The position numbers were made by a program, and so were the translations under genes. The notes under the pieces were generated by a model that saw only the letters and a program-made list of their open reading frames with translations, was not told where the DNA came from and searched no databases. From Cliona cf. orientalis (Eukaryota > Porifera > Demospongiae > Clionaida > Clionaidae): a DNA stretch of 64,000 nt. The stretch covers positions 29,837,079-29,901,078 of the forward strand of contig OZ005689.1 of NCBI GenBank assembly GCA_963930775.1. Direction: 5' to 3'. Numbering within the stretch: the first letter of the stretch is position 1; the number at the start of each line of letters is the position of its first letter. Positions 20,181 through 58,785 of the stretch are shown piece after piece.

Positions 20181-20598
20181 TCTCCTGGTCAGGCTTGATC
20201 CTTATTAAAGTAATAGATACATGTATTAATGGACTACATACCAGTATTAATAACACTATGTCAACACACTTACCACAGGCTTCCCTGGATATATCCAAAA
20301 GTGTAATCGCTGATCGTCGTGCTGTGGCAAACCGCTAAGTGGGTACGTACTTGGCTTCTCAGCAATTCGCCTGGTAAAGTGCAGCTGCATGCAAAGTATG
20401 TATTATGTCCATACACCATGCAACACGGATATGGATTGCCCGCGCGCGCGTAACGTACTTTTCACGTGATACGTACAGCGCATGCGCAGATCCTCGCGCC
20501 TTTACGGCAGCTGCAGCTGCACTTGCGTTCAAAAACTGAGCTGGCTGGAGAAGGTTCTTTTTGCCGAATCTAACCACCGCTGAGAGTTAGTAGCCCAC
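20181..20598. promoter_or_regulatory. left part of split divergent promoter
   Basis: This is the region upstream of the C2H2/DILEG gene. With the 12.49-kb insertion removed it abuts 33091-33108, giving about 430 bp between two divergent start codons. It is GC-richer than its surroundings near 20440-20580, with a run of alternating CG at 20439-20452. An open frame at 20359-20577 with an alanine run is probably not coding. The separate CACTA element at 48611 has a similar 400-bp gap between its divergent genes. Confidence 0.45.
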
Positions 20599-20600
20599 TA

Positions 20601-20952
20601 CGGTGGCCGAGAGAGACACACACGCGCTATGATTCGACCTTAAGCGATTCGACCGTAATCCATTCCACTGTAAGTGATTCGACCCTAAGCGATTCAACCT
20701 TAAGCGATTCGACGCTAAGCGATTCAACCTTAAGCGATTCGTTGGTAAGCGATTCGATCGTAAGCGATTCGACCGTAAGCGATTCGTTGGTAAGCGATTC
20801 GACCGTAAGCGATTCGTTGGTAAGCGATTCGACCTAAAGCGATTCGACCCTATAGCTAATCGATTTGTTATAGTTAGTCAGTGATTCCACCCTAAGCGAT
20901 TCGTTGGTAAACTATTCATCTTTAAGCGATATTCGGTTTCTTGGTACACGAT
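20601..20952 (+). repeat. left TIR: 15-bp minisatellite array
   Basis: A unique outer end of about 40 bp (CGGTGGCCGAGAGAGAC, then ACACGCGCTATGATTCGACC) precedes about 17 units of the type GTAAGCGATTCGACC. Variable last letters are GACCG, GACCC, AACCT, GTTGG and GACGC. The array becomes irregular after 20850. The units are head to tail with no spacers. Confidence 0.93.
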
Positions 20953-22516
20953 TCAACCTTAAGGTAGCTAAACAATATATAATGTAAGCGAGTTAGCTAA
21001 TCACGTGACGTTAATTAATATTATTGCCTACCTCGTGCATATCCGCATGTGAACTTGTCTAGTACCTCACGTCATACCATGAATGTTGACGGTAAGTGAT
21101 CTATATAGAGCTATATTATCGTCTTTGAATAATAATTATTATGAATTACCCGTACTGATCTGCATGCACGGCAGAAGCCTAAGCGTTGGCTCGGGGGCGC
21201 GGCATATATGAGCGACATACTCAGCCTCTGATGATATATCGGCGGGAACTAATTCAATTTGATAGCTTCAGACTAGCTTGTATCTAATCGGCTGCATTGT
21301 CATTTTATGAGATTTGTGTGTGCGTTCTGATCATTATCTCTATAGTTTTTGACTGCTATAATATATAAATACACTGCTGCATGCAAACTGTCACATACAG
21401 TGGGCGTGGTTTTGCAAAAGCTGGGGTGACCATGCAGCTGAATATAGGAAACTAGATATAGGTGTGCATGGTCTATAAAAGCTTAGCTTTTCCACTCGCA
21501 TGAAGCCATACCAAATTAATTATTCATTTCTCGGATTCTGCGGGTCTATAGCTAATGGCTGATTAAAAATTATTTTGTTTTTAATTAACATTCCTCACAT
21601 TATGATAATATTATTATAGTGACAGGCCAGGAGTACTCTTTGAAAAGAGCACTCTTGGTCTGCTACTGATAGTGCTATAAGCTAAACGATCGAAACTGCT
21701 TTAGAATGCAAGTATATATTCACTACTAAAATATTAATGATAGCTAGCTGGCTCTCTGTGGACTGGTGCATGCATGATGCTCACAATTTGCCAGGCCACA
21801 TCTCTTATTAATTATTATTTTTTTAAAATGCTGACCACCCTGGTCTGTTTCCAGCTCCTTTTTATCCGAGAAACAAAGCATCAAATTGGTATGACCTGAT
21901 GTATATATAGCCACTATAGGGCACAGCAGGAAAGTGCCATATGCATTTGCGCTAATTTAAATACATGCCTACATACTATTAGCACCTTCCTGTTGTGCCC
22001 TAGTAGCTATATAATAAGGCCACACCAAATGAGACATTAGTTTCCCGTCCACCGGCACCGCCCACCCCTTGCTGAGTGAGCCGCCTGTTTATTGCATTAT
22101 TGCATTAATATTGCCAAAAACAATGCTATAGACTGACTAACGTCATGATCAGTGTACAATAATATTGTTATAGTATCATAATTAATATAGTATCATTGTT
22201 ATAATAATATTATAATAATAATGATACTGATCGTTGCATTGGACAGTCCTGAAGTCCGACGATGATCGACAAAGTTCGGCAAGCTTCTTCAATTCGGCAA
22301 GGTCAATAACGTCAATGAGATTCATGGAATATCATGATACATATAATACACCACCCGTCCGCATCCTTTTGCAATTATGATTGTGCTAACATTTAAGGCA
22401 TGTAATTAGTATTTCCAATTTTTAAACATTCGGCTTGCTGCGCACAGCCTATAATTGTATCATTTTCAGCTTTTGGGTATAAAGTATGATTATGCAATAA
22501 AATCTATTAATAATGA
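20953..22516. other. leader region inside the 12.49-kb element
   Basis: No confident gene. A short ATG with a strong donor (ATGAATGTTGACG before GTAAGTG, at 21079) could be a first coding exon of the integrase gene, but I could not connect it. 21860-22045 is a long imperfect palindrome. Confidence 0.4.
21860..22045. repeat. imperfect palindrome / foldback MITE
   Basis: The arms read AACAAAGCATCAAATTGGTA and on to TAGGGCACAGCAGG on the left. The right arm, read as complement, gives ACTAATGTCTCATTTGGTG and on to TAGGGCACAACAGG. Arms are about 70 bp around a loop near 21950-21980. Non-coding. Confidence 0.65.
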
Positions 22517-23109
22517 TACAGTGGAACTTCTCATAACGGACCCTCCCAGGAGCGACCACCCACTATATATAACGGAAAACCGCTATATGGAACGGATTGA
22601 ATTTGCCATAGACTTAGTACATTACGAACCTCCGAGGAGCGGACAACCTCTCAATTCTCTATAACGGACGGATTGTTCGGACCCGATTGAACCTCTCAGT
22701 ACAATTTTACTTCTAAATAGCGGACGGCCAGGAAGCCACACCCCTTTTCACGGCCAGTGACGTAATCATGATAGCCTAGCCAAGCCCTTCCCCTTTTGTA
22801 GGAGGGGTGCTATCTTGAAGGTGGGTCCAGGGAGAGACTAATGGCTATTATGCATCAATGCATGATACAATTCAAGTGTATACACAGTACTTATATTGAA
22901 GTAGATTCAAATCCAGCTCATATCCTGCTTTCCTATTGATTCTTTCTCCATTCACCTCTGCAAACGCTAAATAGCTATATAGCTATCATAAAGTGTAGAC
23001 TATATTATATTATTATGTAAATTGTCTCCGCTTCTGTAAAGGGACAACCTCCATATAAAGGACAAAAGGCCTGCTCCCAATGTGTCCATTATTCGGAAGT
23101 TCTACTGTA
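22517..23109. mobile_element. MITE, TACAGTGGAACTTC family
   Basis: The left end reads TACAGTGGAACTTCTCATAA. The right end, read as complement, gives TACAGTAGAACTTCCGAATA. TA lies at both borders, as in Tc1/mariner-type MITEs. CGGAC words recur inside (ATAGCGGAC, AACGGAC). The open frame at 22455-22664 crosses the border and is not real. Confidence 0.75.
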
Positions 23110-23317
23110 CCAGCAATAATAATTATGATGATTATGCATGTTATTAATACTGTAACAGTGTGAATTAAGGACTTCAAAATCCTCAGTTGGCTACAGGGCA
23201 ATGTGGCATGTTCTACAGAACAAGTATAAGCTAACAGTAAAACGGTAAATTAATTCATAATAGTTAATTAGCTATGGTCTATAATATCTCCAGCTAACTT
23301 TATTATGTCCATGCAAT

Positions 23318-25292
23318 ATGAATATTAGAGATGTAGTTATGAGGTTATTACGACAACTGGACCAAGAAAATGTCATTCATCGACAGAAAAGGCGGCTTAG
23401 AAGAAGAGCTTACATTAGTCGAGTATGAGTATAATAATTATTATAATTAATATACCCATGGCATTGCCAGGACATAATTTCCATACATTAATTTTGTATA
23501 CCAAGAAGCTTCTACATTGACCCCTTGAAATGAAGTACAAGCATGGGGAGTGGGCGCTTGGCAATGCCCGGGACACTATTATAATTACTATGGCATCCCA
23601 TGCATGCGGGCCAAAATTGCAATGTACCGTATTTCCTCGAAATCTCGCCGCACCTCGAAATCCCGCCGCCCTCGAAATCTCGCCGCACCTATAAGGAGGC
23701 TAGGTTCCAACAAACGCCGCCCTCGAAATCTCGCCGCATGGAAAAGGGTCGTCGGATTCAAAGTACGCGGAATGCAGGTGCGCAGTGCACGCGCACGATT
23801 TGCACTATCGAAATGGACGAGTGCGCAGGCGCGAGGCGGGTGAGTGGACTAGTCGCCGCCCTCGAAATCTCGCCGCCCTCGAAATTTCGCCGCAGGGTGC
23901 AGCGACTTGAAATTAAATCTCGCCGCGGCGAGATTTCGAGGAAATACGGTATGTCATGTTTAAGCGCCCATGGGTGCGTATCCAGGACACTTCTGAAGTT
24001 CTGAATCAGTACTAAATTATAGTCTGACTCATACATGCATGATGTTAATTATTATAACATTTATTGTACATAAGATTATAATAATATTATACCCATATTG
24101 TAATTGTACAGGGGCCAGACTTTGTCTGGCACCTCGACGGTTATGACAAGTTGGCTCCATATGGACTTTACATTCATGGGTGCATTGATGGGTAAGTTGA
24201 ACTGTCTATAATTATTATTGTTATAGTTGCTCTATACCATCTAGTTTCTCCAGAAAGATAATATGGTTATATGTAGCTTCAACAAATAGACAGCCTGGAG
24301 TTATACTGCAGTATTATTTAGAAGCTGTAAACAAGGCCAATGGTATTATAATGTCATGTTATTTTTAATTTCTGCCATAATTATTATTATGCATGCTGAT
24401 AGGATGTCCGTCAGTACTCCAATTTGATTGTGGTAATGAACATGTGTCCATAGCATCAACACAATATGCGATGAGGGAGAACGATGACGATAGTTTTGCA
24501 GGAGATAAAAGTTTTCGGTTTGGCAAATCCACATCAAACACAGTAAGGAATCTAGCTTATATTTCATGCATGCATATACTATTATACTAATAATTATGAT
24601 TACATCAGAGAATTGAGGGTATGTGGTCACAATTGCGAAAGCATACTACTGGCTGGTGGATAACTGCTTTCAAGGTTTATTATTACATCAATATAAATTG
24701 TACCCTACATGTATAATAATATTATTATCAATTTTTAAAGGAGATGGAAGCCCAAGGAATTTTCAACACCCATAATACAATACATAGGTTGTTGGCTAGC
24801 ATTAAACTTTATAAAATCTATTATACTTATTATTACTGCTGTATTATCCAATTCAGGAAATGTCTGGCTGTTGTTTTTAAGTCACTCTTGCAAAATGACT
24901 TAAATGAATTCGTTCTTTACTGGAACACTCACAGGATCAGAAGCTCTAAACATTACAATTGTATTAGTGGAATCCCCAATGATTTGCACGATATGCCTGC
25001 TTACTATGGTCAGTATATAAGATAATCAAGTTTATAAACTTGAATATTATTCCTATAACATTAATTTCTGTTTTTAGGTACAAGCAGTTACCTACAATCG
25101 ATCAATTTTAATGTTTGGTATACTGCTCTGATGACCGAAGCATGTTCCCCACCTCCAATGTACGACAGCAGGTTCTATCAAGAATGCTATGAGCTAGTGC
25201 ACAACACACTTGGTGTAGATCTTCACAAAGACATTACTCATAGCAATTCACTTGAAGTGTACAAATTTCTCATTACATCACTGTACATATGA
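23318..25292 (+). CDS. rve/DDE integrase-type protein (5' end uncertain)
   Basis: Exons read in frame through GT..AG borders: about 23318-23424 (DVVMRLLRQLDQENVIHRQK), 24112-24191 (GPDFVWHLDGYDKLAPYG), 24245-24341 (FSRKIIWLYVASTN), 24402-24542 (GCPSVLQFDCGNEHVSI), 24609-24675 (RIEGMWSQLRKHTTGWWI), 24741-24788, 24857-25008 and 25078-25292. The catalytic triad of an integrase core is present: D in WHLDGYDK, D in QFDCGNE, E in RIEGMW. Multi-exon genes with these motifs are widespread in fish and cnidarians. No stop interrupts the eight exons. It is the likely mobilising enzyme of the 12.49-kb element. The true start lies upstream and is not fixed. The 23425-24111 intron holds two MITEs. Confidence 0.82.
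23455..24000. mobile_element. TGTCCTGG-type MITE split by another MITE
   Basis: Pieces resembling the 26533-26696 element (GCCAGGACA, CCTTGAAATG, GGGCGCTTG, CCCGGGACACTA, and AAGCGCCCATGGGTGCGTAT with CCAGGACAC near 23960-23985) flank an inserted palindromic element at 23625-23951. Everything lies in an intron of the integrase gene. Confidence 0.55.
23625..23951. mobile_element. MITE, TACCGTATTTCCTCGAAAT family
   Basis: The ends are inverted matches: TACCGTATTTCCTCGAAAT on the left and ATTTCGAGGAAATACGGTA on the right. The inside is dominated by repeats of CCGCCCTCGAAATCTCGCCG on one strand. The open frames across it arise from this repeat. It sits in the integrase intron, inside an older MITE. 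Confidence 0.85.
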
Positions 25293-25544
25293 CACTATAA
25301 TACATTAATAATTACGAGTTCAATCTTCTGTTTCTCCATAATAACATTGTATGAATGCAAACAGCTGAGCATTAAATAATAATCATGAGCAGTAATAAAA
25401 TTTTACTGCTGCAGGTTATTACAACAATAATTGTGGTTGAACTGGTTAAGAATAAGATGAGAAGTGAGTAAGCTACAACGTTGACTTCAATATTATTATT
25501 TGCAGTAACTTCACTCCGAATTTTCTTCAGTTGCAAGTATCAAT

Positions 25545-28500
25545 TCAAATTCCCTGAAAATCTGCAATTATGCATAATAATAAATTAATTAATTCATAAT
25601 GAAATTGGATGTCTACATCTACTTACATCTTCACTGCATGGCCTCAATGCTGGGACTCTCTTTAAGCTCTTGTTGATTCCCAAATAGAGTTGGCACTTCT
25701 TATTTTCCAGTTCCCCAGCCTTGGAATCAGCAAGAGCACGAAACGTGTCCAAGTTACTGCGATCATCTTCAGTATGGTCAGTCTAAGTTTTCATAAAACG
25801 TATAACTATGACATTGATAAATACAACCAGATGTATGACATGTAGTCGAGCTCAGCTCCAGAACATGCTATGGGTCGTAGGCAAGAATGGACAAATAGTA
25901 CAAAACTCCTGTATAATAGTATTGCACTTATGTCGTGGTACCGGTGTCATAGGATAATATTTATTTAGATATTATTATTAAAATTACCAAGTTGTTTGCA
26001 GTCCTCCGGTCCGAGTAAGCCAGCATCCCAGTAAAACACTCCAGAATCACCTATAGTATAGACACAACATACAATAAGTACCACACGTGTATATACACCG
26101 TACGGTACCCACCTGCACCCCCCCCCCCCCACACACACACACAAACACACACACGCTTACCACTCCAAGAGAATATATGTCACTTCTCACACTGTAGTTT
26201 CCATCACTGAATTCAGGAGGGCGGTACCCATTCGTTCCCGGAAGTCCATCACGAGCGTTGATCAGAGTTACATTACCCACAGTTTCTGGCATTTGTATGG
26301 AGAAACCAAAGTCTGCCAGTTTAGCTGTCAGGTGTTCATCCAACAATATGTTGGACCTGTATAATAGAAGTACTGTACTTAATCTATATGGAATGCATGG
26401 TCCAGTTTAGTGTAAGAAAACAGTACTTTACAAATTTTCATGTTGTTTATACAATATTATGGAGTGATTGATGACCTTTACCATAAAACATGCTGTTTAA
26501 ATTATTTTTCCATACTCTCTACTAAAATTAATTACCATAGTGTCCTGGGTAAGCGCCCATGTAATTTTAGCCCACATGGGTGCTTACCCGGAATCAAAAT
26601 TCCATACATTTGTATGGAACCTGCTACAGTGACACCTTGAAATGGGGTACATGGGTGTTTACCCGGGAGTGGGTACTTGCCCAGGACACTATGGTAAGTA
26701 CTACAATTCAATACTAAGTCTTACGAGTTTATATCATGATGAACAACTGCAGGTGTTTCACTATGTAAATATACAAGCCCACACGCTGCGTCCCGTAATA
26801 CTCTGGCCCTCTTAAACCATGTGAGTGGACTGTAAATCTGTAATCACAAGACACCATCTTTGTATGCATACAATTAATGTGTCACTCTAACCTCTAACTC
26901 ATGGATGTTTTTGAAGAGTGAATACCTCTTCATGAGAGGGTACACAAGACAAGGAGGCTTCTCACAATATCCCATCAACGGTACTAAATTTGGATGGCGG
27001 TACCTATAATATAATATTGTGCAGGTGTTACATGCATTATGTGGGAAAAGCATACTACATGCCGAAATTCACAATACACACCTTGTTAGAGCATTTATTT
27101 CAGTCCGCAACTGTGTAGTAACTTTCCCTCTCAGCATGCTTACACCACGCTATGGAGAATTCACACTGTATTAGTAATACCAATAGCAAATTTGAGCATA
27201 ACTTACTTCAGTCAATTTTTTAATCGCCACACTACAACATCTGATTTCTCCTTCAAACACCATGCCAAATCCCCCTCTTCCAATAACAGTTTTCTCTGCA
27301 AAATTGTCCGTAGCTTTTTGTAATTCACCAAATGTGTATACCATTGTTGATCCTGTAATAAATACAATAAATATGCAAATACATGTAGTCATGAATGAAT
27401 TCAATATTCACTATAGTAGCTCTTTGACATCGTACATGTATAATAATATGTAGCTATACATATTTTACCCATTAGTTGGAAAGGGTCATCATATATATGT
27501 ATCCACAACATCAACATTAGTATTAACATGATTATTGTTGTATATTAGTGTGAGGAATTTAATTATGTGGTTTATACCATCAACATATTTTTTGTGATGA
27601 ACTAGTGGCTCGTCTGCACTCAGATTATCTTGAGTCTGAGACTGGGAAGTGAACTGAGATCCTGACTGGGAAGCAAACTGAGATCCTGACCGGGAAGCAA
27701 ACTGAGATCCTGACGTTACAGAACTTGTAGTACCTGATAAGATCAACAAGGCATGTGATCATTCCACCACCACTACTGCATGTACCTACATGTAACTGTC
27801 ATGACACACTCACCTGTTTTTTGTCGTTCAACAATTATGGTTTTAGATGAGCATCGGTGCCATCCAGCATGGATGGAACATCTGTATGTTCCAGGGGAAC
27901 TAATCCAGAGTACAGGTGAATTCCCAGGAATTTCTTTGTCCACTGAATTCCATTTATACTCAAAATCAAGGGTATGCCCACTAGCAATGCAAAAAAGGGG
28001 GATCGACTCTGTTCCTGTGAGTACTATTTTACTTGGGGACTGATGGATTATACTCAAGGCACCTGTTGAGAGCATGTGTATACAGTAAAAAATGATATTC
28101 AAAATTAAGAGCTAATGAAACATACCATCTGCAGTATCATCCTTCACAGAAAATTTCCCATCCGAATCACAAGTTAGCAATTCTATGTCATCTGATTATA
28201 ATAAATAACAATATTGAAACCTTGCACATCACATTATATACACAACTAAGAGTCACAAATATTTAGGCATATAACGATTAATGCAGGACAAAAATGTAGT
28301 GTTAGTGTGATAAAAATTTCTACGTATACAGTATTAAACTGTGGCTGTATATTATTATGTATGTAGCATCGCATAACCTTTCTGTATCATTACAACATGA
28401 TAGGAATCATCTTCCGGGATATAATCCAGTGGAACATCATTTGTGGCAGAAACGTCACTCTTTAAACCATAAACTTCAGCTCGTGTGTACATGACACTAT

Positions 28501-30831
28501 CCAGTCCGAGTGCACCAATACCACCAGCATACTTCACTGCAGTAAAATGTATCATACTGGTGGCAGCAATCGTCAACTTCTAACATACCAACTAAATCAT
28601 TCGGATTTGACTGTGCAGGGGGTGGGGGATTCTTCTCTCGTCTCTCTTTCAATTTTGATCCCTGGATTGATATACAATGTGGCTAGTTAGTACCTCCATC
28701 ACAGGAACAATCTGTCAGTAAAGGACAACTATCCTGCCCCAGAGTGTCTGCTGTTCACAGATTCTATTATATACAAAACTTACAATGAGGCTGTCCACAA
28801 ATCCAATGCTGAGCTTCATCTGAGCAGCATGTCTTTTTTGCACCCTTAGATACTCACTAATTGTCCATGGACGATCACCAATGGGTTTGTTGGGTACTTC
28901 TGTGCCATCAATCCTAAATAGCCTCAGTTCATACATGTAGGAATCATCCTCTTCAAGATCAATATCCAAGGCATCTGCACATATCTCGCACAGCTCCTCA
29001 TACGATGCAGAACTCGGGCAAGAAACTTCAACATACTTATCAGACTTCACATGTGAATTTCTTTTCCTGGATCGCCTCATTTGACACACACGTAACTATA
29101 TTAAAAGGATGATATCAGCGATGATCGCTTAGAATCACGGACACTACCGAAATTCAAGCTGGTTGTTGCATAACACACTGCATGCGTAATGCATGCTATA
29201 TATAGGCAAGGTTAGCTATAATTATCCATGGGATTGTGTAAGGCAAGAGAATGCGTAAAATCTGAACAGTGGTATTAAAAGCAATATGCTGCTAGTAAAG
29301 CATTTGCACATACTGATTTTTAAGTCCCAGAAAGGCTCCATCGAGGCCCTGAACTTTCTCATGATTTTACCATAGGTTTCATCATAATATTATTAATCTC
29401 ATAACCACAGAAAAGTAAATTGCTACTGGGCATGTAATTTTTTTATTCATACCATTTCAGTGCTGGCAATTCTAGCTTTCCCCAGCTGTTTTCGGGCATG
29501 TCGTTGGGCATCTCTACCTCGAACAAGAGCATCAAGAGATTCTTGTGGAACCATACCTCCTATCAGGAGCACATACATGCAAAGGAAAAAGGGGAGTAAT
29601 GAACAGCTATATACACATAGTGCATAGAACAACTGTTTACAACATTCTAACGCATGATGGTCAGACAATCAGGTGAATATGACATACTGCTAAGTATTAA
29701 TCATGGTGTTATTGCTGCTAAGGATATAGATGCACAATGTGAAAAATGAATACACCCAAGTACGCATGTTAATGTGGTACGGGGTCACTTAATCAGAAAA
29801 ATAATTGTCGCATACAAGTGGTTCAGATTATAGGATTTGGTTGCACCCAATCAGATTTGAGAATTAAATATATTGCATAGAGTAATGATTTACTAGTGGT
29901 ACCATATGGCAGGTAATTTTCGTGGGGACTAATTTTTGTGGAAAGTCCGAAAAGGCCCTCAAAACTAATTTTCGTGGTTTTAAATTTCGTGATAGCAACC
30001 AGTCCAGGGGCATGGCACTGCTGCACTAAACGATGATGTAATCGATACAAGCACTCGTGATCTTCTTTGTTACAAAGCCATACCTACAGAGACTTGGACA
30101 AATAGCATGAGACAGTGTCAAAGATGCTATCAGCTGGTTACTATACTGGAAAGTATTGGCCACGCTGCCACGATGTTTGTGGCCACGTCCATCATCATGG
30201 ACTCGCATTGTACCATATCACTGTAGGCATTAATTTTCGTGGGTGGAAAATTTTCGTGACTGCCAAGTCAACCACGAAAATAATGAAAATTAGCACCCCA
30301 CGAAAATTACCAGCCATACGGTATGTGTGCACAGTTGTTTGCAATTACATATGACGTTTTTTTTTTCACAATTATTGCATTCCGCCAGAACAACTAGCTG
30401 TATAAATGGTCACCAGACCCCTCTTTCCCTCTGATTAGAGTGTGGCATGTGAGATTGCTACAGGCACATACAGCAATCAAGACCAAAAAAATGGGCCCGA
30501 TCAATTTTGATCCTGGTCATAGGTACAGTATCAGTACAGCGCATAGTGACCACGCATCTCGCAAGGCCCTTGCTACATATATCAACAATCCGAAAGATTA
30601 CGCATGCATACTAGGAAGCTAGTCATGTTTATAATATATTGTAGTGTGTTTACTAATACACTCACCGCTAGCGCCGAGAGGTCTAGCTGTGGTTCGGGAG
30701 CCGCCCGTTGTACCAGTCGTTGGACTCTCAGAAACATTTCTCAACGCTTCTTGAACCACATTTGATACTCCTTTTACTATTTCCTCTCGTGCTGCTTCTA
30801 TTTTCCTGGATCTCAGCCATCGCCCTGCCAT
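25545..30831 (-). CDS. Ig-domain plus Pelle/IRAK-like kinase
   Basis: A 16-exon gene from MAGRWLRSRKIEAAREEI (30831). Approximate exons: 30831-30666, 29559-29453, 29095-28784, 28664-28592, 28538-28379, 28193-28125, 28063-27813, 27734-27578, 27355-27207, 27152-27083, 27004-26892, 26839-26730, 26357-26163, 26050-25987, 25782-25627, 25553-25545. In order: a charged N-terminus; a ubiquitin- or RA-like segment (KYVEVSCPSSASYEEL); an Ig-like domain (IPLFC, EYKW, GTYRC); three SGSQFAS repeats; then a kinase with GRGGFGMVF, VAIKKL, TEINAL, VHHDINS/SNILLD, DFG and GYRPPE. Pelle/IRAK kinases act in innate immune signalling, and FGELQKATDNF before the P-loop fits that group. His replaces Arg of HRD. No signal peptide or membrane span is seen. 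No stop interrupts the model. It lies wholly inside the 12.49-kb transposon, so it is a possible captured host gene. Confidence 0.82.
26533..26696. mobile_element. MITE, TGTCCTGGGTAAGC family
   Basis: The left end is TACCATAGTGTCCTGG and the right end, read as complement, is TACCATAGTGTCCTGG as well. The internal text includes AAGCGCCCATG and ACATGGGTGCTTACCC, which pair. It lies in the kinase intron between the exons ending HHDINS and starting SNILLD. A scrambled relative is at 23455-24000. Confidence 0.8.
29900..30323. mobile_element. MITE, AATTTTCGTGG family
   Basis: The left end is TACCATATGGCAGGTAATTT and the right end, read as complement, is TACCGTATGGCTGGTAATTT. Both continue TCGTGGGG. 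Inside, TTTTCGTGG and its complement recur several times near both ends. It lies in the first intron of the kinase gene. Relatives are at 42053-42513, 51858-52326 and 63742-63930. Confidence 0.85.
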
Positions 30832-31365
30832 GTCTGCCTGCTAGCCCGCTTCTTTCTAACTGGAGCCCACCAATGTCACACGTGTCTCGTTCCCGGACCA
30901 CACAGTAACACCACAGAGTCTCGTTCCCAGATCACAGATCTCGCGCATGCATACATGTCAGGTCAGTGACTGAGTGGGCCAGCCACCTCAACAGCAGTCC
31001 TAACTGAACACCAAGGCTTAAATAAGCTTCATCTCAAGAACTTGTGGGTTTTGTAAAGCTCCTGAACTTCTCTATTGACCCCAAATTCATGATAAGCATC
31101 GTTACTAGTTTCAATAGAATTGATTAATCCACCCACAAACTGAATAGGAGCCTACATGTATCTTAAAACTGCAGCCATGTAGAATTATGATACTGACAGT
31201 AAGATGCATAGCTAATACTATCATAGTAGCAGCAATGCGGTATTATTACTAAATAATGCTACCATTGCACCATCAACCCAGTCTGGCCCCTGACAGTTGT
31301 CGTTGCACATAACTGTGCTTGTACAGTCCTTGAAATTGTATAATTATGCAGTGAATTAGATTGTA

Positions 31366-32575
31366 TTATAAAATCATGTATGATGTATACCTACTTTCTT
31401 CTAGGTTGTTTAGCATTGTGATTTTTTCAGCCTGCATAATAGTATTATAAGAGTACAATAGGCGTAATATTTAATGTGATTTAGTACATGATGATGCTTA
31501 CATCATTGTAGTTGAGATCATATACATCCATCACAAGCCTGATAATGACCTCTGGCCATAGTACAGATGCTCCGTAGCCATAATTCTATAATAATTAGTA
31601 ATCATAGTAGCTAAATCACCTTTAGTATAGTCAATTTTTGTACTAAAAATTCATCAAGTTACACTCATAGATTTCCCAGGGCATAATCTTTCAGTAATCC
31701 ACGTTAGTATCTCTGGAAACTGATCCTTCGTGACAACCAAATTAAAATTTTGATACCGTAGACCTTCTATAAAAATTAATTACATGTAATAATAATATTA
31801 TTACTCAATGATTCCACTCGATATATATATATAACAATTAGATGAAAGTACCATACAATATTACATGAATAGCAATCACCTCTTATTTTTGGCGGTCCAT
31901 TCATAAAAGCATCATGGCGCCAAGATGGGATCTACAGACAGTACATGACATTAATTTTCTTTGTACCTGCTTGTACAGTTACAGTATCAATCAAGATTTG
32001 CTTCATTACTGGTTGTGATCATAGCCATAGTGACCAATCAGAACCAACTTTGCATGGCCTTGTCGGCATGCGCCATAGAGCAAGAACCGAAGTTCATCAG
32101 AACCCATTTCCCTCCTCGAGGATGGGATCTAATTCAGAAATACGCCCCAGAAAGCACTCAATGTGTACCAGACCCTTTCTGGGAACAAAACTAAGACTAT
32201 AACATTGAGGTGATCTGGAGCATGGTTATATTGGAGATTCACCTATTGTGCAGCCAATTTGGAGGCGGGGGGGATAATTTATTGATACAAAAAAATTCTC
32301 AACCTACCTTGCCATCTGCTATGTCCTGGAAGTGCTGCCAGTTGTCGCAGAACCACAGGTATAGCTCATTGATGCTAATATCCTTGATTTGCCTATCAAT
32401 ATAGTTTATTAAAAGTTAGAAAATTAGATAGCTACCATCACGGACACCCGACGTGACAGTTTATTGAAATTTTGATACCAACTAACGTTTTTCCCAAGAG
32501 AGGTTTAGGACTGTCTTCTTCATCACTAGATCTAATAACTATCACTTCGTCACTGCAGCTGCCTGTGATAGCCAT
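31366..32575 (-). CDS. small six-exon gene, unknown function
   Basis: Read from MAITGSCSDEVIVIRSSDEE (32575) through exons 32575-32487, 32392-32309, about 31935-31882, 31770-31665, 31586-31499 and 31436-31366. Phases agree at all borders and the stop is TAA. The product is about 150 residues: an acidic, Ser-rich head with a possible SUMO-interaction-like stretch (VIVIRSSDEE), then DISINELYLWFCDNWQHFQD, NLVVTKDQFPEILTWITE and VLWPEVIIRLVMDVYDL. No family was recognised; the body looks all-helical. It is the outermost gene of the 12.49-kb element, next to its right terminal repeat, and is transcribed in the same direction as the kinase. Confidence 0.65.
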
Positions 32576-32712
32576 TTTATGGCCAGGTACTAGGTGAGTC
32601 CGTGGCAGGGGCGCTGTGGGTGGGGTCACCTAACTGTATATACGCGCGATTTATCGAATGCGGGAAATTCCCTAATTCAGGTAGCGCACTAATTGCATAC
32701 GGTCCGCCGTGT

Positions 32713-33090
32713 CGAACCAACGAATCGCTTTAATACCAGAGAATAGTTGAACCGCCTACCAACGAATCGCTTAGGGTCGAATCGCTTAAGGTCGAATCGC
32801 TTACCAATGAATCGCTTAAGGTTGAATCGCTTAAGGCTGAATCGCTTAGCGTGACACCACAGCTATAGGGTCGAATCGCTTAAGGTCGAATCGCTTATCA
32901 ACGAATCGCTTACGGTCGAATCGCTTACCAACGAATCGCTTAAGGTTGAATCGCGGCTTAGCGTCGAATCGCTTAAGGTTGAATCGCTTAGCATCGAATC
33001 GCTTAAGGTTCAATCGCTTAGGGTCGAATCGCTTACAGTGGAATGGATTACGGTCGAATCATAGCGCGTGTGTGTCTCTCTCGGCCACCG
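32713..33090 (-). repeat. right TIR: 15-bp minisatellite array
   Basis: This is the inverted partner of 20601-20952. Units read AATCGCTTAAGGTCG and AATCGCTTACCAACG, and the outer end reads ATCATAGCGCGTGTGTGTC then TCTCTCGGCCACCG. The two arms share the terminal 40 bp almost exactly but differ in the order and number of units, as expected for minisatellites that evolve by slippage. Confidence 0.93.
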
Positions 33091-33703
33091 TAGCCCACAG
33101 TTTTAAGCATGGAATTCGCGGAGAGGTCTGTCGATGAAATGGCAGAGTAGCTGACTTTGGAGAAATTTTCAGAAAATACTGTGCGAATATTCAAAGGTGA
33201 GCATATAGACTAGCTATACAAATTTAATCTACAGTACATCGGTTTAATACCAATATAGCTAGTATCTAGTCCATATCAGTTAAGAATTAATAATATACTT
33301 TTAGAAGTTATTTCGTAAGCAGAAGCAAAGAAAGTGCTTCAGTCTAGCTAGCTATTAAACTATCTAACTAGGGCAGCTGCGATGACATCATAATTTCAAC
33401 CATTTTGGGGAGATCATCGCAGCTGCTCTACCTAGACACTTTTTTTTTTGTTATTCCACTTACTAAATAAGAAGGTAGTGGTGATATATCAATTACTAGT
33501 AAATAGTTAGCAGGATTAGTCTCCAGGGTCAGTATTGCAGGATTTATCTGAACACTGCTGCCACATATATGTTCGAACAATGGTTTATCTGTTAACCATT
33601 TATAATAGTATGTCAGAATCCAGCCCCTGACCCCTCTCATAAAAAGGCCTTGTCCATTCTTTATATAGCTATATATAGGAGGTCCAGCAAAGTTAGCTTT
33701 GTA

Positions 33704-34297: not shown

Positions 34298-34483
34298 TGT
34301 GACATATGCTAGAATGCATTGTACTTGTAATAATGATTATGTCATATCCTGTGATGTATTATGATGTATGCTTGTATTGTTGTATTTGTGTCTGTATATA
34401 AAGTGTATGCACGTATGTATTTGTTCAGTCTATCATCCTCTCTATAATAATATCCTTGTCAATACTAAACGCCAATCACCACA
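34298..34483 (+). repeat. Gypsy 5' LTR
   Basis: 186 bp, TG..CA ended, with a TATA box TATATAAAG at 34395-34403 placed for transcription into gag. It matches the 3' LTR almost base for base. Confidence 0.95.
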
Positions 34484-34505
34484 TGGTGGCAGCGGCGGGA
34501 TAGCA

Positions 34506-35357
34506 ATGGCTAACTCGATCCCAATCGCAACCCCGGAGCAATTCGACTTCAGGAAACCGGACGAGTGGCCCAGATGGAAGCGCCGATTCCAACAGTTCTT
34601 GAGCGCCTCCGGATTGGACAAGGAAAGCGATGAGAGGAAGGCGAGTACGCTTCTCTACTGCCTTGGTCCTGAGGCCGACGACGTGCTGACCTTAACCAAT
34701 ATAGAGGACGCAGACCGGAAGAAATACTCGAAAGTAATCGAGAAATTCGACGCACACTTCAAGGTTCGGAGCAACGTGATATTCAAACGTGCTCAATTTA
34801 ACAAGCGAGACCAATTGGAGAGCGAATCAGCTGAAGAGTACATAACGGCTTTGTACAGCTTGATCGAGACGTGTGACTATGGTGCCATGAAGGACGAAAT
34901 GCTAAGAGATCGACTCGTTGTTGGCATTCGCGACGCAAAGGTGTCGGAAACTCTCCAGATGTACGCCGATCTGACCCTTGATAAAGCTAAAAAGGTCATT
35001 CGCCAAAAAGAAGCCGTGAAGGAGCAGACCCAGCAGCTGCACACAGCAGACCACAAGAGCCTGGAAGAGGTCAGGAACTCTAGACCACGCTGGAGTAAGA
35101 ATGCTCATAATCGCAACACGCATCGTACACGCAGAGATGCCAAAGATAAGAAGGGCACTACAAAAGGGCAAACAAGCCACAACTGCACCAGGTGTGGACA
35201 AACAAAACACAAACCTGGAGACAGATGTCCAGCCAAGGAAGCAACCTGTAGGAAATGTAACAGGAAAGGTCACTATGCTGTAGTATACTTCTCAAAAACA
35301 GTTGCAGCATCAGCACACGAAGTGAAACGGAAGACTCCGCATTTCTGGGAGCACTGA
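34506..35357 (+). CDS. gag: Gypsy gag polyprotein
   Basis: Start chosen at MANSIPIATPEQFDFRKP (34506), the first Met after the primer-binding site; the longer open frame begins inside the LTR. The 283-residue product has a capsid-like region (WPRWKRRFQQFLSASG, YCLGPEADDVL, VVGIRDAKVSETL) and a basic tail with two zinc knuckles. The first is CTRCGQ..H..C. The second is CRKCNRKGHYAVVY, where the last Cys is Tyr. Gag would package the RNA into particles. The lost knuckle Cys hints at decay. The stop at 35355-35357 falls before the protease, so a frameshift or readthrough would be needed for pol. Confidence 0.85.
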   Translation: MANSIPIATPEQFDFRKPDEWPRWKRRFQQFLSASGLDKESDERKASTLLYCLGPEADDVLTLTNIEDADRKKYSKVIEKFDAHFKVRSNVIFKRAQFNKRDQLESESAEEYITALYSLIETCDYGAMKDEMLRDRLVVGIRDAKVSETLQMYADLTLDKAKKVIRQKEAVKEQTQQLHTADHKSLEEVRNSRPRWSKNAHNRNTHRTRRDAKDKKGTTKGQTSHNCTRCGQTKHKPGDRCPAKEATCRKCNRKGHYAVVYFSKTVAASAHEVKRKTPHFWEH

Positions 35358-35360
35358 CTG

Positions 35361-38216
35361 GAAACGGAGACACCAGTTGGACTAGTACACTGAAAATAGC
35401 TGGGACGAGAATCCAGTTTAAACTAGATACTGGGGCAGAGGTGACCGCGATCTCGGAGACAACCTACCCTACCACAAACTGGACAAAATTCCACTCCAGA
35501 AGGCAACCAGATCTCTCCAGGGACCAGCAGGCAAATCGCTAAACGTGCTCGGACAGTTCACGAGAAGGGTCTCACGTGCAAAGAGATCTAGTAATGAAGT
35601 CATTTTCGTAGTGCGAGGACTAAAAAACAACCTCCTTGGACTTCCTGCCATCAAGAATCTACACCTCATCAAGAAAGTCGACTCGACGACCACCACAACA
35701 ACGACAATCCGAGAACGATTCGCAAAAGTGTTCGAAGGACTCGGCACACTGGGAGACGAGCATAAAATTCAGCTTAAAAATGACGCAGTCCCGTATTCGT
35801 TGTGCACTCCTAGAAATGTACCTCTACCTCTACGGGACAAAGTGCGAGAGGAGCTGGAGCGAATGGAGTCGATGGGCGTGATCTCCAAGGTGGACACACC
35901 CACTCCCTGGTGTGCTGGTATGGTGGTGGTGCCAAAGAAATCAGGTGATGTAAGAATTTGTGTAGATTTAAAACCGCTAAATGAGAGTGTCTTGAGAGAA
36001 GTGCATCCCATACCATCAGTTGATGAGACTCTAGGCAAACTAGCCGGGGCCACGGTATTTAGTAAACTTGACGCAAACAGTGGGTTTTGGCAAATCCCCT
36101 TGTCTGAAGATTCCCGCCTACTGACGACGTTTATAACACCCTTTGGGAGATTTTGTTTCAATAAGTTGCCATTTGGTATATCTAGCGCTCCCGAGTTGTT
36201 TCAAAAGCGTATGAGCAAGCTACTTGAGGGCCTAGAGGGTGTTGTATGTCACATGGATGACGTACTGGTGGTAGGGAATGACCAAGAGCAGCATGATACG
36301 AGATTAGTTGAAGTATTCAAGCGAATCGAAGCAGCAGAACTGACTCTGAATGCTGCTAAGTGCGAGCTGAGCAAACAAAGTGTCAAATTCCTCGGACATT
36401 GCATCAGCAAAGAAGGGGTCCGAGCAGACCCTGACAAAACTGCCGCTATATGCAGAATGGAACCCCCTAATTCAGTTGCAGATCTGAGAAGATTTATGGG
36501 GATGGTCAACCAGATGGGCAAATTTTCCCCCAATATAGCCGAGATCGGTAAACCACTACGCGAGCTTCTGAGTACGAAGAGAGCATGGCTGTGGGGCCCA
36601 GAGCAAGAACGAGCCTTTAACGAGCTAAAATTGGAGCTAACACGTCCGACAGTGTTGGCTTTGTACGATCCAACAGCCAAGTCTAAAGTATCCGCAGACG
36701 CTTCGTCCTTTGGATTGGGAGCGGTTTTGCTGCAGGAGAACAGCAGATGTGAATGGAGACCTGTAGCTTACGCTTCGCGTTCCCTCTCGGAAACAGAGAG
36801 ACGCTATGCGCAAATTGAAAAAGAAGCGCTAGCGGTGACCTGGAGCTGTGAAAAGTTTTCGGATTATATCCTCGGAAGCAGGTTCGAAATTGAGACAGAC
36901 CATAAGCCATTGGTACCCATATTGAGCAGCAAGCATCTGAACGACTTACCTAGAGTACTCAGATTCAGACTGAGAATGGCCAAGTTTGATTACAGTATCA
37001 GCCATGTACCTGGGAAGCTACTTTACACCGCAGATGCCCTCTCGAGGGATCCAGCCCCAGAGCAGGAGCCGACTACTCTACAGACGGAGGTGGAGACGTT
37101 TGTAAAGACTCTTCCAGCTTCAGAGCAACGGCTGGAGGCATATCGTCAAGCACAAGAGCAAGATGAAGAGTGCACGCAGGTGAAAGAGTACTGCAAGATG
37201 GGCTGGCCGAAGAAGCAGCTCATACCTCCTAACCTTACTCCTTATTGGAAGGCACGAGATAGCCTGACGATTTGTAATGATTAACTGCTCTATAACTCAC
37301 GTATAGTTGTTCCCAAGTCGATGCAGCAAGAGATGCTGTGCAAGATTCACTCTGGTCATTTGGGAATAGAAAAGTGTAAGAAACGCACTGCCACATCGGT
37401 GTGGTGGCCGGGAGTGATGCAACAGATTTCTCAACTTGTGCAGAACTGTGGGGTTTGTGCGAAACAGAGCAGACCGGGAAAGGAACCGCTGATGACGTCC
37501 GACTTACCCAAGTATCCCTGGCAGGTTTCGAACTAAACAGGTTGAACTATCTACTAGTAGTAGACTATTTCTCTAGGTACCCTGAAGTAATCCAGTTGAC
37601 ATCTACCACATCCGCAAGTGTCATATCTGCTTTGAAGTCAGTGTTCGCGCGACATGGAATTCCCGAGATTGTGAGAAGCGACAATGGGCCTCAATATTCA
37701 TCCTCAGAGTTTGGAAGCTTTGCAAGCTCATACGGGTTTCAACACCTCACAAGCAGCCCAAGATTCCCACAGAGCAATGGGCAAGCTGAAAGATCGGTTC
37801 AAACAGTCAAGAACTTACTAAAGAAATCAGACGACCCATATACATCTCTATTGAGTTACCGAGCTACCCCGTTGTCCTGGTATGAGCTGAGTCCAGCAGA
37901 ATTGAGCATGGGGAGAAGACTTCGAACGTCAGTCCCTCAAACTGATAAGATGCTCATTCCGCAATGGCCCTATCTGAAAAGCTTCAGAGAATTGGATAAA
38001 CAACAAAAACAGAAGCAGAAAGAGAACTTTGATTTGAGACACCGTGCGAAAGAGCTTCAGCCGATACCGAACGATACTGAAGTATGGATCACAACCGAAA
38101 GTAGTTTCACCCGCAAGTCGACCACAATCGTATGTAGTAGAGACACAATCTGGACATATCGAACGCAATCACAGCCAGTTGACTGTCGTACTGAGAGAGA
38201 ACTCGGGAGACTCTGA
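35361..38216 (+). pseudogene. pol: Gypsy pol: protease, RT, RNase H, integrase (broken)
   Basis: The aspartic protease motif LDTGAEVTAIS lies near 35423, but its frame breaks before the main open frame at 35545-37284. That frame holds reverse transcriptase (VPKKSGDVRICVDLKPLN, PFGRFCFNKLPFGIS, and the catalytic box as HMDDVLV) and RNase H (VSADASSFGLGAVLL, ETDHKPLVPI). A single TAA at 37282-37284 then interrupts it. Integrase follows with a zinc module (HSGHLGIEKCK, CGVCAK) and D, D, E positions in VVDYFSRYPE, RSDNGPQY and NGQAERS. A frame change with a probable small deletion falls near 37530. The copy is not autonomous. Confidence 0.92.
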
Positions 38217-38327
38217 AACTCCTCAAGTGAATCAGCAGCCAGCAGTTGAAACTGAAACTCCACGCAGAATGACAAGATCGAGAACTGGCGCTGCTGTCAA
38301 TCCTCCTAATCGACTTTAAGGGGGAGA

Positions 38328-38513
38328 TGTGACATATGCTAGAATGCATTGTACTTGTAATAATGATTATGTCATATCCTGTGATGTATTATGATGTATG
38401 CTTGTATTGTTGTATTTGTGTCTGTATATAAAGTGTATGCACGTATGTATTTGTTCAGTCTATCATCCTCTCTATAATAATATCCTTGTCAATACTAAAC
38501 GCCAATCACCACA
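38328..38513 (+). repeat. Gypsy 3' LTR
   Basis: 186 bp, the match of the 5' LTR. It is preceded by the polypurine tract AAGGGGGAGA and followed by the target duplication CATAA. Confidence 0.95.
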
Positions 38514-41398
38514 CATAATACAATGTAAAATAATTTGGTGTGGAATATAATACTTTCTTCTTTTTAATTTTCTCTCCATGATAACTAGAGACATGCAGGG
38601 CCGGCCCTGGCCGGCCTGTTTGTGGTGAGCCTGAGCTGACCGTAACTGAGACCGAAAAGTCATAGATTATGAAGACCATGCATGTTAATAGCTGGCAAGA
38701 CAGCCTCATACGTAGCTGCCTCGGTTTACACTCTTCATTCTTGCTATAGCTATACTGTCTAAAAGCACGAGTGTGAATTTGTAATTCGCTAAATTAGAAT
38801 GGCGTACATGTATATACGGCCTATAGCCCAGGCATGTGCATGAGAATGTGGAGTAGAATATTTCGCGTTTTGTACATAGAGCTACCTGGGTATATGACCT
38901 AATATTATTAACAATAATATTATATTTCCTTTTGTCAGCCCCAACAGATTTCTGCTAAGGCAGTCACACCTCAGGATATATTTTCTACCACTAGAGAGGT
39001 ACGTATGTACTTTAATTTTGTACATAGTTCGTGTTATACTTGGCAACTTACTCAGTTGGTGACTTCACATAGTTCATCAGCAGACTCCGAGGACAGTGAA
39101 GAGGAACAAAGCTACATCACTAAACAAGTAACTATTAACTACATGTGTAAGGATTATTAATTAGTGCTTGCATATATAGAATTATATTATCAGGGTTGCT
39201 TTGCTCTTCAAGTTGCAGTACCTACATTAAAAAGTATGGCAAGTACAACTGTGATTCAATTCCATTATAATATATACTTGTAGGATATTTCATCATTGCC
39301 TTCAGACGAGGAAGGAGATGAAGTCATTGAGAAGAGTAGCCAACTGCATGAGAAAATGGTATGTGAAACACATTTTAATTTAAATGCACATTACGCCACA
39401 CTATTATATTATGCATTATTTCATGATTATAGAGCGATGTCCTATCGAGGAGGACCACTACGACTTCTAAAGATGACTTTGAGGGTAATCACAAGCAGGT
39501 ATGTTTAGAACAGTCGATATGCATCATACAAGGAGAGAGCTCCCTTCACTCACTCACTCCTTATCCTGCACATGCTGCATCCTGCATCATGCAGTGCATA
39601 CATACATACGACATACATGCTGCAGCATTCGCGCACGTGATAGTACAGTATAGTGCACCGCATGAATAACAGTATAGGTAATGTGGATATCTATCTATGT
39701 CAGCACGTCTTTCTTTAACTAGAGTGAACCAAAACGGCTCAAATTGGATCCAGATGCTACTGTTGTGAACACATGGACTAGGGTGGCATCAAAGAAAAAA
39801 AAGGAGGCACAACTTCCCATGCCATTTGATTTGCCCCTCAACTTTCAGCCCTATATTCAGGCTGGACTTGATGAAGAAATCTTACTGGGAAGGCACGAGC
39901 AAAATTTATAACTAGCATTGCTGAGGCAATTTATCGCTTCATGAGCTACCCGACCAAGGAAGAGTACGAACATGTGGCAAACCAGGTTGTAAAGAAGTGG
40001 GGATTTATGGAAACCAAAACTGGTCATGTAAGTTTGATATGGACCCTTAATTTACAAATACTCAAACTTATTGTGTATGCTTTCATGTTACTTAACTACA
40101 GGGGTACCTTGTAGAAGCATTAAAAGAACGTATGGCATACCTGCGAAAACCTGATGGTGAGAAACGAGGGAAAGGGAAAGCTACTCCGACACCTTCCAAA
40201 CCAGCTCCTCCCCTGATGCCATCATCTCCTGTAGTGCTGGAGCCTCCTGGTGAAGACAGAGCCTCACACGAACGGCATTTGAAATGCTTAAAGCACGAGT
40301 GCAGGATGGTTCATCCCAATAAGCAGGTATATACATATATCACATGCAGGCTTCCAGGGAGGAATATAGTTACAAATAAATTAGGAGCTCATATAAACCA
40401 AGCTCTCTTTTCTGCCCCCCTCCCCCCTTATGGAATTACGATGAGTATTAATTTTCTCATAATTATTTTGATTATTTGGTAACTCAGGATTTAATGAAGA
40501 GGACCTTTGCATTCCGGCGTCAGGACCTCCTGGAGGGTACCATTACTACCGAGGATATGTTTTCTATCTATCCTCCACTCAAATATCGTGACGAAGTATG
40601 TTACTTTAATGGTTCAGGGCCCCAATATACATAGTAAATTAAGGCACCTAGCATTTTTGTGGGAATAACATTTCAATGTATATGTAATGCTACTATCAAC
40701 GCAGCCAATTGCCAACCCATTGTACCTTAAATTTGGGGATAACAATAGATTTTTCCGTTTTATAATAATATAGTTGTTAATGTTGTACATATATGTCTGC
40801 AGATCATCTGTGAATTTAATCGAATCATGGGGAAAGATATTGCCATTGAAATTAATGAGAAATGGCCAGAGTTGGGTCAGCAAATCATAAAATTGGCCAA
40901 AAAGGAATTGGACAACCATTTGATTCAGGACTTCCTGAAGGATCTACCCGAAGAGTTACCTGAAGGTGGGTTCTGGCATGTGGATGCACCTAAAATATGC
41001 ATATGTACAGAGTACATAGTCAGAACTATTTTAGCAGGAATTAAATTTGGAAAATTGGCCTCGATAATGTCATGAGGAGTCTATAGGACCTGTTGATACA
41101 TCATAACTAATTAATTTTGATTCCTTGCCAAATTTTCAGGCCTTCACAAGTATGCTGTATATTATTTAATCACCTTATACTGCAGATGGAGAGAGTGTTC
41201 TTGCTATGTGTCTCCTGTACTATTTACTACCAGATACACGAGTAAAACCTGACCATACACGTGTGCTGACACTAATAGAGGTAAATTTGTAGTGACTATA
41301 GCTCTCAAGAGCACATAATTAATTTTATACACTCCATGCTCTGTGTTTGCATCTATATAAGGCATAGGAAGGTATTGAAGGTTGGGGGGGGGGGTGTT

Positions 41399-57800: not shown

Positions 57801-58785
57801 TCAACTTTTTGATGTTATTTCTAAAATATGTTCTGAAGAGATGAATCCGATACTTTTGAGTCAGATTGAAGAGGAAGTACACAAAGCTCTAGCACTAATT
57901 GAACGAGATTTACCAGTGACTGTCCAAGTCATTATGCTTCATCTACTTCACCACTTACCTATGTATCTTAATCGATTTGGTCCAGTCTATGTGTTTTGGA
58001 TGTTTTCGTTCGAGCGTTTTAACTCATGGATAAGCAGAAGAGTGTTGAACAGACGATATCCTGAGTCCAACGTCGTTGAAACGTATCGTTTGTCTGAGTG
58101 GGCACAGTTTATGCAGATATCCAACCAGCTTCCAGGTGGTTCTATTGCAGAAGATGATAACGACCATGATGGTAAAGTTTCAACATGTGCACAAGACTGT
58201 AAACAAGAGTTTCTAACTGCAGAATTACTTAAAGATTTACATCTACACTACTATCAGGTATCAAAAGAGTACCAGGAACTACATGACAGATACAAAAACG
58301 AAGTCAGACAGGGAAGAAAAGGTCGCATACCATCTGTCCCAGCCATGTCAGACTGGAAACCAAATGTGGATGTACCATTGACCGAGTTGCAGAAATTAAT
58401 ACATCGACAGATGTCAACCCAAGGTGCTATTACATTGATAAAACACTTCTCGTATCAAGATAAGCATCACCGTACTGTAAGGCTTTCTCGTGCAGATGTA
58501 GAACGTGATTTTTCGCATACACGATGTTCGTATGTGTCCAATACCTCTAGAACAGAAATTGGGCGAATAATGTCCATTTTTAAGCATACGCTGGGGGTAA
58601 ATCACACTGTGTTTGCTCATATGTGCTGGTTTGATGGCCCATACGCAGACAGTGATAGTCATCTATGTTATGTGTTCACACGAGCAGCACACGTCACTTG
58701 TGCCTGTCACAGAAGTAAGCCACATGTGGTGGCTGTGGATGATGATGAACCAGAAAAATTATGGATTCTAGATCTATTTTTGTAA
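54822..58785 (+). CDS. CACTA transposase, Transposase_21 type
   Basis: Three exons, 54822-54965, 55328-56399 and 57110-58785, join in frame with GT..AG borders to give 963 residues with no internal stop. The N-terminal 100 residues are acidic. Next come a Cys pair region (YHCCVNDCIIY, QCCPMCGEQRY) and the Tnp2/Transposase_21 core LCLDGMNPFSKDKVQYSMTP with LPRHIRNQAASMFLVGIIPG. After the last intron come AGCAYCTMTGEH and a DUF4218-like region (LHHLPMYLNRFGPVYVFWMF, SFERFNSWISRRVLNRRYP). This family cuts and pastes CACTA/EnSpm elements. The start codon is the first Met with a Ser/Asp/Glu-rich run and a good donor. A MITE lies in intron 2. The intact frame suggests recent activity. Confidence 0.92.
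56677..57065. mobile_element. MITE, TACCGTATTCGCTCGA family, diverged
   Basis: The left end reads TATTCCATATTCGCTTGATC and the right end GATCGAGCAAATACAGTA. The inside matches 52367-52766 (CTCTCGAATAGTAGCCG, GAAGTGCTGAACG, CCTAGATCAGTGG-type phrases). It lies in the second transposase intron, just before the acceptor at 57108. Confidence 0.8.

Follow-up and report, generated by a model that had tools for sequence, protein, structure and literature searches.

Within a 64,000-nucleotide stretch of the Cliona cf. orientalis genome (the window; C1:29837079-29901078 in a 217-Mb assembly), positions 20599-33092 form a DNA transposon of 12,494 bp with ends TACGGTGGCCGAGAGAGA, which carries an integrase-like transposase gene and, converging on it from the opposite strand, a gene for a multidomain protein kinase. 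The features of the locus, in window coordinates, are as follows.

20593-20598: left target-site duplication (TSD) GCCCAC, 6 bp, identical to 33093-33098
20599-33092: whole element, with inverted ends identical over 24 bp and a flanking 6-bp TSD
20631-20849, + strand: left minisatellite array, 15-bp unit GATTCGACCGTAAGC, 14.6 copies by Tandem Repeats Finder (TRF)
22377-22384: junction at which 598 bp of a second copy on contig C6 are missing; the missing stretch contains two 5' coding transposase exons
22520-23107: stretch without counterpart in the C6 copy, a gap between aligned pieces and a probable nested insertion
23159-25292, + strand: transposase gene of IS3EU type, 5'-truncated (Pfam rva_4, 1.9e-35)
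23159-23244, 23329-23422, 24112-24191, 24245-24342 and 24403-24542, + strand: transposase exons 1-5
24609-24674, 24741-24787, 24857-25008 and 25078-25292, + strand: transposase exons 6-9
23627-23952: second stretch without C6 counterpart, likewise a gap between aligned pieces and a probable nested insertion
25511-32575, - strand: kinase gene, 21 modelled exons, 825 residues, from the exon model and the match to protein P0122
32575-31395 and 29559-29453, - strand: exons of the kinase N-terminal region
31395-32575, - strand: 5' exons of the kinase gene, taken in an earlier note on this DNA for a small unknown gene and joined to the kinase in P0122
28784-29095, - strand: exon for a ubiquitin/PB1-like beta-grasp domain, low-confidence model (mean predicted local distance difference test, pLDDT, 59)
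27814-28062, - strand: exon for an Ig-like domain (mean pLDDT 91.7; template-modelling score, TM, 0.80 to an Ig domain of MALT1)
25627-27352, - strand: kinase-domain exons with the VAIK lysine, HHD replacing HRD, and DFG (Pfam Pkinase, 2e-33)
32763-33060, - strand: right minisatellite array, the 15-bp unit of the left array inverted, 19.4 copies by TRF
33093-33098: right TSD GCCCAC, identical to 20593-20598

The inverted ends, TACGGTGGCCGAGAGAGACACACA, are identical over 24 bp with GCCCAC flanking each side, and the two terminal inverted repeats (TIRs) align with 190 of 212 positions identical (90%); together with the TRF copy numbers, this alignment bears out the inverted arrays of a 15-bp unit described in the earlier note. 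The motif CGGTGGCCGAG is found at 20601 (+) and 33090 (-), and at up to one mismatch it has three matches in the window (two of them exact), against a chance mean of 0.12. The flanking duplication, which the note had put at 8 bp (TAGCCCAC), is instead the 6-bp GCCCAC: the 8-bp candidate was rejected since it does not abut the left end and the 6-bp repeat lies outside a TIR starting TACGGTGG, the longer repeat having been perceived because the right TIR ends in TA.

A second full element occupies C6:2377802-2395380, with the same ends, its own TSD (GTATGA) and the same kinase gene. Window positions 23953-33036 align to it in a single piece of 9,272 columns at 94.3% identity, spanning the kinase gene and most transposase exons, and positions 23108-23626 align at 93.8%; outside the exons of an earlier gene model the divergence is 3.1% (173 of 5,574 sites), the splice sites of the modelled exons are conserved, indels are in frame only, and about 4.3 kb of the C6 copy have no counterpart in the window copy. 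The genome holds 102 + 99 matches to CGGTGGCCGAGNNNGA, against 1 + 1 for a reversed-pattern control. Among the 100 listed of these 201 places, 33 neighbouring pairs face inward within less than 20 kb; 29 of them span 0.70-2.3 kb and four span 6.8, 10.3, 12.5 and 17.6 kb, so that the family presumably has many short, non-autonomous members. Six elements were read at their two ends: five of them (window, C6, L005/L006, L008 and the C11 relative described below) have a perfect 6-bp TSD, and L003 has none. With the ends, the TSD, the inverted arrays and a second copy all seen, the element is real, as the earlier note had held; that note had also regarded the lack of a second element with these ends as a ground for abandoning its proposal, and the C6 element, which has its own TSD and carries the same gene, is such a second element. 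Two further long spans lie between the same ends, at C1:13567189-13577466 (10.3 kb) and C5:8928533-8935363 (6.8 kb), neither with a match in the genome search with the transposase.

The transposase model takes its first two exons from a spliced alignment to P0001, a relative that matches Pfam rva_4 (with an HTH_21 match below the cut-off), and the others from its own exon models. Aligned to P0001, the C6 copy yields 11 exons spanning residues 1-368, whereas the window copy is reliable only from 23159; the first two of the 11 exons fall within the 598-bp stretch that is gone from the window copy, where 40 bp of it, belonging to neither of those exons, have a match at another place in the element. 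The integrase-type DDE enzyme named in the earlier note is therefore correct as to enzyme type and not as to its being intact, and the window copy, judged by these two missing exons, is probably not autonomous. A search of the genome with the transposase gave 138 matches, of which the near-identical places are the window and C6 only.

The kinase gene was delimited with the aid of P0122, an 830-residue protein from a separate source, known from a JGI contig of 2,749 bases; a frame of this length on so short a contig would represent a transcript copy. P0122 ranks second in a protein search with the kinase region (56% identical over 95%), where the plant protein P0121 scores higher at 34% identity, and by BLASTP it matches the 825-residue model nearly end to end (316/842 identical, 38%; E 2e-176). 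Its start matches the supposed small gene and its remainder the kinase gene, so that the two are one gene: the exons 32575-31395 join onto 29559 onward with the frame kept, and the three enclosed genes of the earlier note were rejected for two. The C6 kinase gene translates to 834 residues with no inner stop, and the gene is thus open in both copies. The 21-exon model was built by hand, the spliced alignment of P0122 having wrong exons in weak regions, and replaces a first model of 16 exons from 30831 (730 residues); of the note's 16-exon kinase with an Ig-like domain, the kinase and the Ig domain stand and the exon count does not. A 166-bp open exon at 30831-30666 (- strand), 98.8% identical in C6, can likewise be spliced in frame to the later exons of the kinase gene; it is either spurious or a possible alternative first exon. 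When residues 90-380 of the 730-residue model were used as query, a protein search returned nothing at E<=0.001, a weak negative since P0122, which the kinase region finds, was missed too.

The kinase domain matches Pfam Pkinase at 2e-33, which rules out an alpha-kinase. Its nearest neighbours in the PDB are BIK1 and IRAK4, followed by IRAK1 and BAK1, and in the kinase tree the element kinases fall on the side of IRAK and the receptor-like kinases (RLKs) with 100/100 support, in keeping with the Ig plus Pelle/IRAK-like kinase announced in the earlier note. The tree includes seven plant RLKs, two fish sequences (one of them IRAK3 by source) and 17 kinases of the same genome, single-exon matches of which 18 were fetched and one dropped; because of this choice, the host's IRAK genes are not represented if they are intron-rich. 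Within the RLK/IRAK group no one placement is preferred, three groupings having approximately unbiased (AU) test p values of 0.30-0.35, and the bootstrap had not settled. On sequence grounds, the domain belongs to the RLK/Pelle/IRAK group, and the comparison with the genome's other kinases that the note suggested gave the side of the tree. An N-terminal Death domain is a mark of the IRAK/Pelle family, with which the window kinase has its domain homology in common, as it has with plant RLKs; it differs from IRAK/Pelle in the lack of a Death match in Pfam scans of the modelled proteins, in HHD for HRD, in its Ig and beta-grasp-like domains and in its location inside a transposon. The same scans gave no TET domain.

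The VAIK, HHD and DFG motifs of the window kinase are taken from the exon model. The HRD position reads HHD in the window and P0122, HQD in the kinases of relatives E35, E11, E8, E14, E59 and E78, HLD in E31, E6b, E18 and E64, and HQC in E2, the models of E20 and E66 being too poor for a call; in plants, non-RD kinases are enriched in immune receptors. Pfam gives the Ig-like domain a weak match (Ig_2, 7.6e-5, 23.3 bits against a cut-off of 27); the structural model, with mean pLDDT 91.7 and the second Ig-like domain of MALT1 as best PDB match (TM 0.80), indicates that it is sound, and it is seen also in E35, E59 and E78. MALT1 is a paracaspase and not a kinase, and the likeness extends to the Ig fold only. 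For the beta-grasp exon, modelled with three sequences in the alignment (mean pLDDT 59), the leading PDB matches are PB1, UBL, LC3 and FERM folds, the best at E 0.022. The highest 19-residue hydropathy mean, 1.51, lies within the kinase domain, so that no clear membrane segment is predicted.

The association of such a kinase with the transposase extends to diverged relatives. Among the 138 transposase matches, 18 multi-exon relatives were picked by hand and 4.4 kb taken at each 3' end (L051-L068). A kinase match at E<=0.01 is present in 10 of the 18 (L051, L052, L057, L058, L059, L061, L062, L063, L065 and L068), with weak matches in L064 (E 0.046) and L066 (E 0.12), and in all ten, as in the two weak ones, kinase and transposase are on opposite strands; the sampling fixed the side and left the strand free, the transposase strand of L066 being taken from the genome search. 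No kinase match at E<=1 was found in 42 control stretches (152 kb) from the window outside the element, short elements and intronless transposase loci, and the difference between 10/18 and 0/42 (Fisher 5.8e-7) is only indicative because some control stretches overlap or are near-copies. Among the relatives, identity to the window transposase is mostly 41-46% (33-52% overall), with common intron positions where the models are well covered; in kinase group A, introns are common at most positions to the window, E35, E11, E8 and E78, and partly to E2 and E20.

Three kinase subtypes (A, B and C) can be distinguished, and since the B and C members E14, E59, E31 and E6b also have a short motif found in the beta-grasp exon, all three may derive from one ancestral gene. 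Several clusters are common to the kinase and transposase trees: E8, E35 and E11 (99/98 in both), E14 and E59 (99/98 and 100/99), and E31, E6b, E18 and E64 (100/98 in the kinase tree; 83/86 in the transposase tree, there with E60). E35, E11 and E8 keep the lysine, the aspartate and DFG at 33-40% identity to the window kinase. E31 and E6b, on two contigs, are 98.9-99.1% identical over 3,139 and 1,940 columns, from which members of the group seem to have been copied recently. The E11 relative on C11 is bounded as an element, C11:6463065-6473834, with the 6-bp TSD CTGATC: inverted arrays of an unrelated unit led to TATGGAAGCCGAGAAG as the right end, with CTGATC next to it, and on the left side, read after the right, CTGATC is followed by TGTGGAAGCCGAGAAG. 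Its left array has a 41-bp unit (TRF) and its termini are TATGG on the right and TGTGG on the left; this one relative thus also has minisatellites at its ends, built of another unit.

Coding constraint was estimated between the window and C6 copies. Over the whole kinase gene there are 15 nonsynonymous changes at 1,929 sites and 12 synonymous at 546 (dN/dS 0.35, Fisher p 0.009), and in the kinase domain 3/689 and 6/196 (dN/dS 0.14, p 0.005), which gives signs of constraint on the kinase gene.

The termini, the 6-bp TSD and the rva_4-type transposase, on which the assignment rests, fit IS3EU/GingerRoot. According to PMC10045372, complete IS3EU families have TA..TA termini and usually 6-bp duplications, and GingerRoot termini are mostly TA..TA and occasionally TG..CA; the window and C6 elements resemble them in their TA..TA termini (TACGG..CCGTA), 6-bp TSD, TIRs and integrase-like transposase, and the novel integrase-driven class considered in the earlier note is not supported. 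The element differs in the inverted minisatellite arrays of its TIRs, in the many conserved introns of its transposase and in its canonical protein kinase gene, and neither 'kinase' nor 'minisatellite' occurs in the main text of PMC10045372. A parallel comes from fungi: according to PMC12730594, the TET gene of TET-carrying IS3EU families is flanked by a transposase gene and an alpha-kinase gene in opposite orientations, and a rust-fungus set has TAYGG..CCRTA ends. The likeness to these TET/JBP and alpha-kinase elements lies in the ends, the 6-bp TSD and a kinase opposite the transposase, whereas their kinase is an alpha-kinase and that of the window is of RLK/Pelle type with beta-grasp-like and Ig domains (PMC12730594). 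Alpha-kinase matches number 11 in the sponge genome, none near the listed transposase matches, and in the literature searched, of which coverage was partial, no IS3EU element with an RLK/Pelle-type kinase was found described.

A second arrangement is present in the same genome, where some intronless rva_4 transposase loci have a HECT-type frame downstream in convergent orientation. Frames were listed for ten such loci and four frames were scanned with Pfam, the flanking frames of L017 and L021 being left out; three are HECT candidates, at 3.9e-8 in L019 (above the cut-off), 5.8e-5 in L029 (23.3 bits against 23.9) and 0.0043 in L018 (below). These E3 ligase-like frames lie at L019:3-1136, L029:2416-3486 and L018:157-693, the match being above the cut-off in L019 only.

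Taken together, these data probably reflect an old, intron-rich lineage of IS3EU type whose usual genes are a transposase and a convergent multidomain kinase, the latter perhaps acting as a host-directed effector. The lineage would combine an integrase-like DDE transposase with a kinase which, in the window, has an RLK/Pelle/IRAK-type catalytic domain preceded by a MALT1-like Ig domain, a beta-grasp-like domain and an N-terminal region. In a cut-and-paste cycle, the transposase would bind the ends and the short-repeat arrays within them (what recurs is the array and not its sequence, since the unit differs in another member) and would move the element through 6-bp staggered cuts. The kinase, as a soluble non-RD enzyme, might phosphorylate host proteins, for instance signalling or silencing factors, and such phosphorylation might raise the chance of the element being transmitted, these last two steps being the least certain; it would then be an effector encoded by the element and not passive cargo. 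A role as effector is favoured over one as regulator of the transposase on account of the likeness of the domains to adaptors in host signalling and of a sister lineage that pairs its transposase with another signalling enzyme. More tentatively, and with somewhat less than even confidence, a common plan may be proposed for the IS3EU-type group, in which a transposase is accompanied by a signalling enzyme (RLK/Pelle here, HECT-type in the sister lineage, alpha-kinase in fungi) that rewires host signalling or silencing, the enzyme being swapped while the convergent place is kept.

Several observations weigh against the reading of the kinase as an old effector of the lineage. No kinase match at E<=1 was found in 6 of the 18 relatives (L053-L056, L060 and L067; 4.4 kb each), where the stretch may be too short or the kinase lost. 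Group A forms a single clade in neither the transposase tree, whose deep forks are unsettled, nor the larger kinase tree, in which E2 and E78 fall separately from the others. Motifs are damaged in several kinase models: E2 has HQC, E14 neither VAIK nor DFG, E59 DMG, E18 neither glycine loop nor VAIK, E64 no DFG and E78 DFS; the Ig and N-terminal regions of E8 and E11 were not recovered in the models. Among the relatives, borders were sought for E8 and the C11 element of E11 only, and terminal repeats were not found for E8. The constraint rests on two close copies and 27 coding changes, which are small numbers, and is not significant for the part before the kinase domain (12/1,240 and 6/350; dN/dS 0.56, p 0.25) or for the transposase (3 and 2 changes, p 0.28). 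P0122, finally, has no established transposon context.

The alternative that fares best is that the kinase serves transposition itself, phosphorylating either the transposase or a factor of host DNA repair, which would set when or how often the element moves. The pairing of kinase and transposase and the clusters common to both trees agree with it, as does the presence, in TET-carrying fungal IS3EU, of a kinase of another fold opposite the transposase (PMC12730594). The beta-grasp-like and Ig domains, by their resemblance to host-signalling adaptors, argue against it, and the HECT-type gene of the second IS3EU-type lineage suggests a variety of host-directed enzymes, so that a role in transposition deserves consideration and is on balance unlikely.

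That the kinase is a neutral hitchhiker, retained merely for sitting between the ends, could account for the damaged motifs of several relatives and for the 6 of 18 without a kinase match; the dN/dS values of 0.35 for the whole gene and 0.14 for the kinase domain, the intact frame and splice sites of both copies, and the retention of lysine, aspartate and DFG in E35, E11 and E8 at 33-40% identity make it improbable.

That a host IRAK/Pelle gene was captured recently and is carried as cargo, a form of the DNA-level capture entertained in the earlier note, might be expected from the host-like architecture, the full introns and the proximity of the kinase domain in the PDB to BIK1, IRAK4 and other RLK/IRAK kinases. 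No closer host donor copy outside elements was found in this assembly, where exon-by-exon comparison scored 61 of 967 candidates; among those scored, high-identity matches along the gene occur at the two elements only. For the remaining kinases listed, identity is about 28-37%, with exceptions at C1:21850927 (48%) and C1:20640644 (57% to P0122). Diverged transposases are adjoined by related kinases in the same convergent place, and P0122 has the same architecture in another source. Recent capture appears very improbable on this evidence, and the kinase, given the lack of a close donor and the convergent kinases of diverged transposase relatives, seems to have long been a functional component of the element. 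As separate observations, the kinase exon at C1:20640644-20640868 possibly belongs to another element kinase, and C4:10336000-10812000 holds a cluster of at least 22 kinase matches, each of a single exon, with some 30% identity to the query. The last alternative, a host kinase gene flanked by minisatellites by chance, has nothing beyond the host-like gene in its favour and is refuted by two insertions that differ in their flanks and each have a perfect 6-bp duplication, 201 end matches genome-wide and a transposase gene inside, which leave it practically no probability.

Most known cut-and-paste transposons of eukaryotes encode little besides a transposase; in the sponge genome, by comparison, diverged families have kept a multidomain kinase of the innate-signalling type together with their transposase. 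If the effector role of the kinase is true, it becomes testable whether DNA transposons manipulate the host cell via signalling enzymes. Such kinases also risk annotation as host immune genes, and the elements carrying them suggest one source of new kinase architectures.

Other candidate mobile sequences were noted by eye elsewhere in the window. Positions 34300-38520 resemble a Ty3/gypsy-like long terminal repeat (LTR) retrotransposon, with gag-like and pol-like frames, which are broken, and near-identical terminal repeats, apparently inside a multi-exon gene adjoining the transposon. Long frames at 43801-45917 (- strand) have the look of a P-loop helicase of PIF1/Helitron-like type, and those at 55283-58785 (+ strand) resemble a CMC/EnSpm-type transposase.

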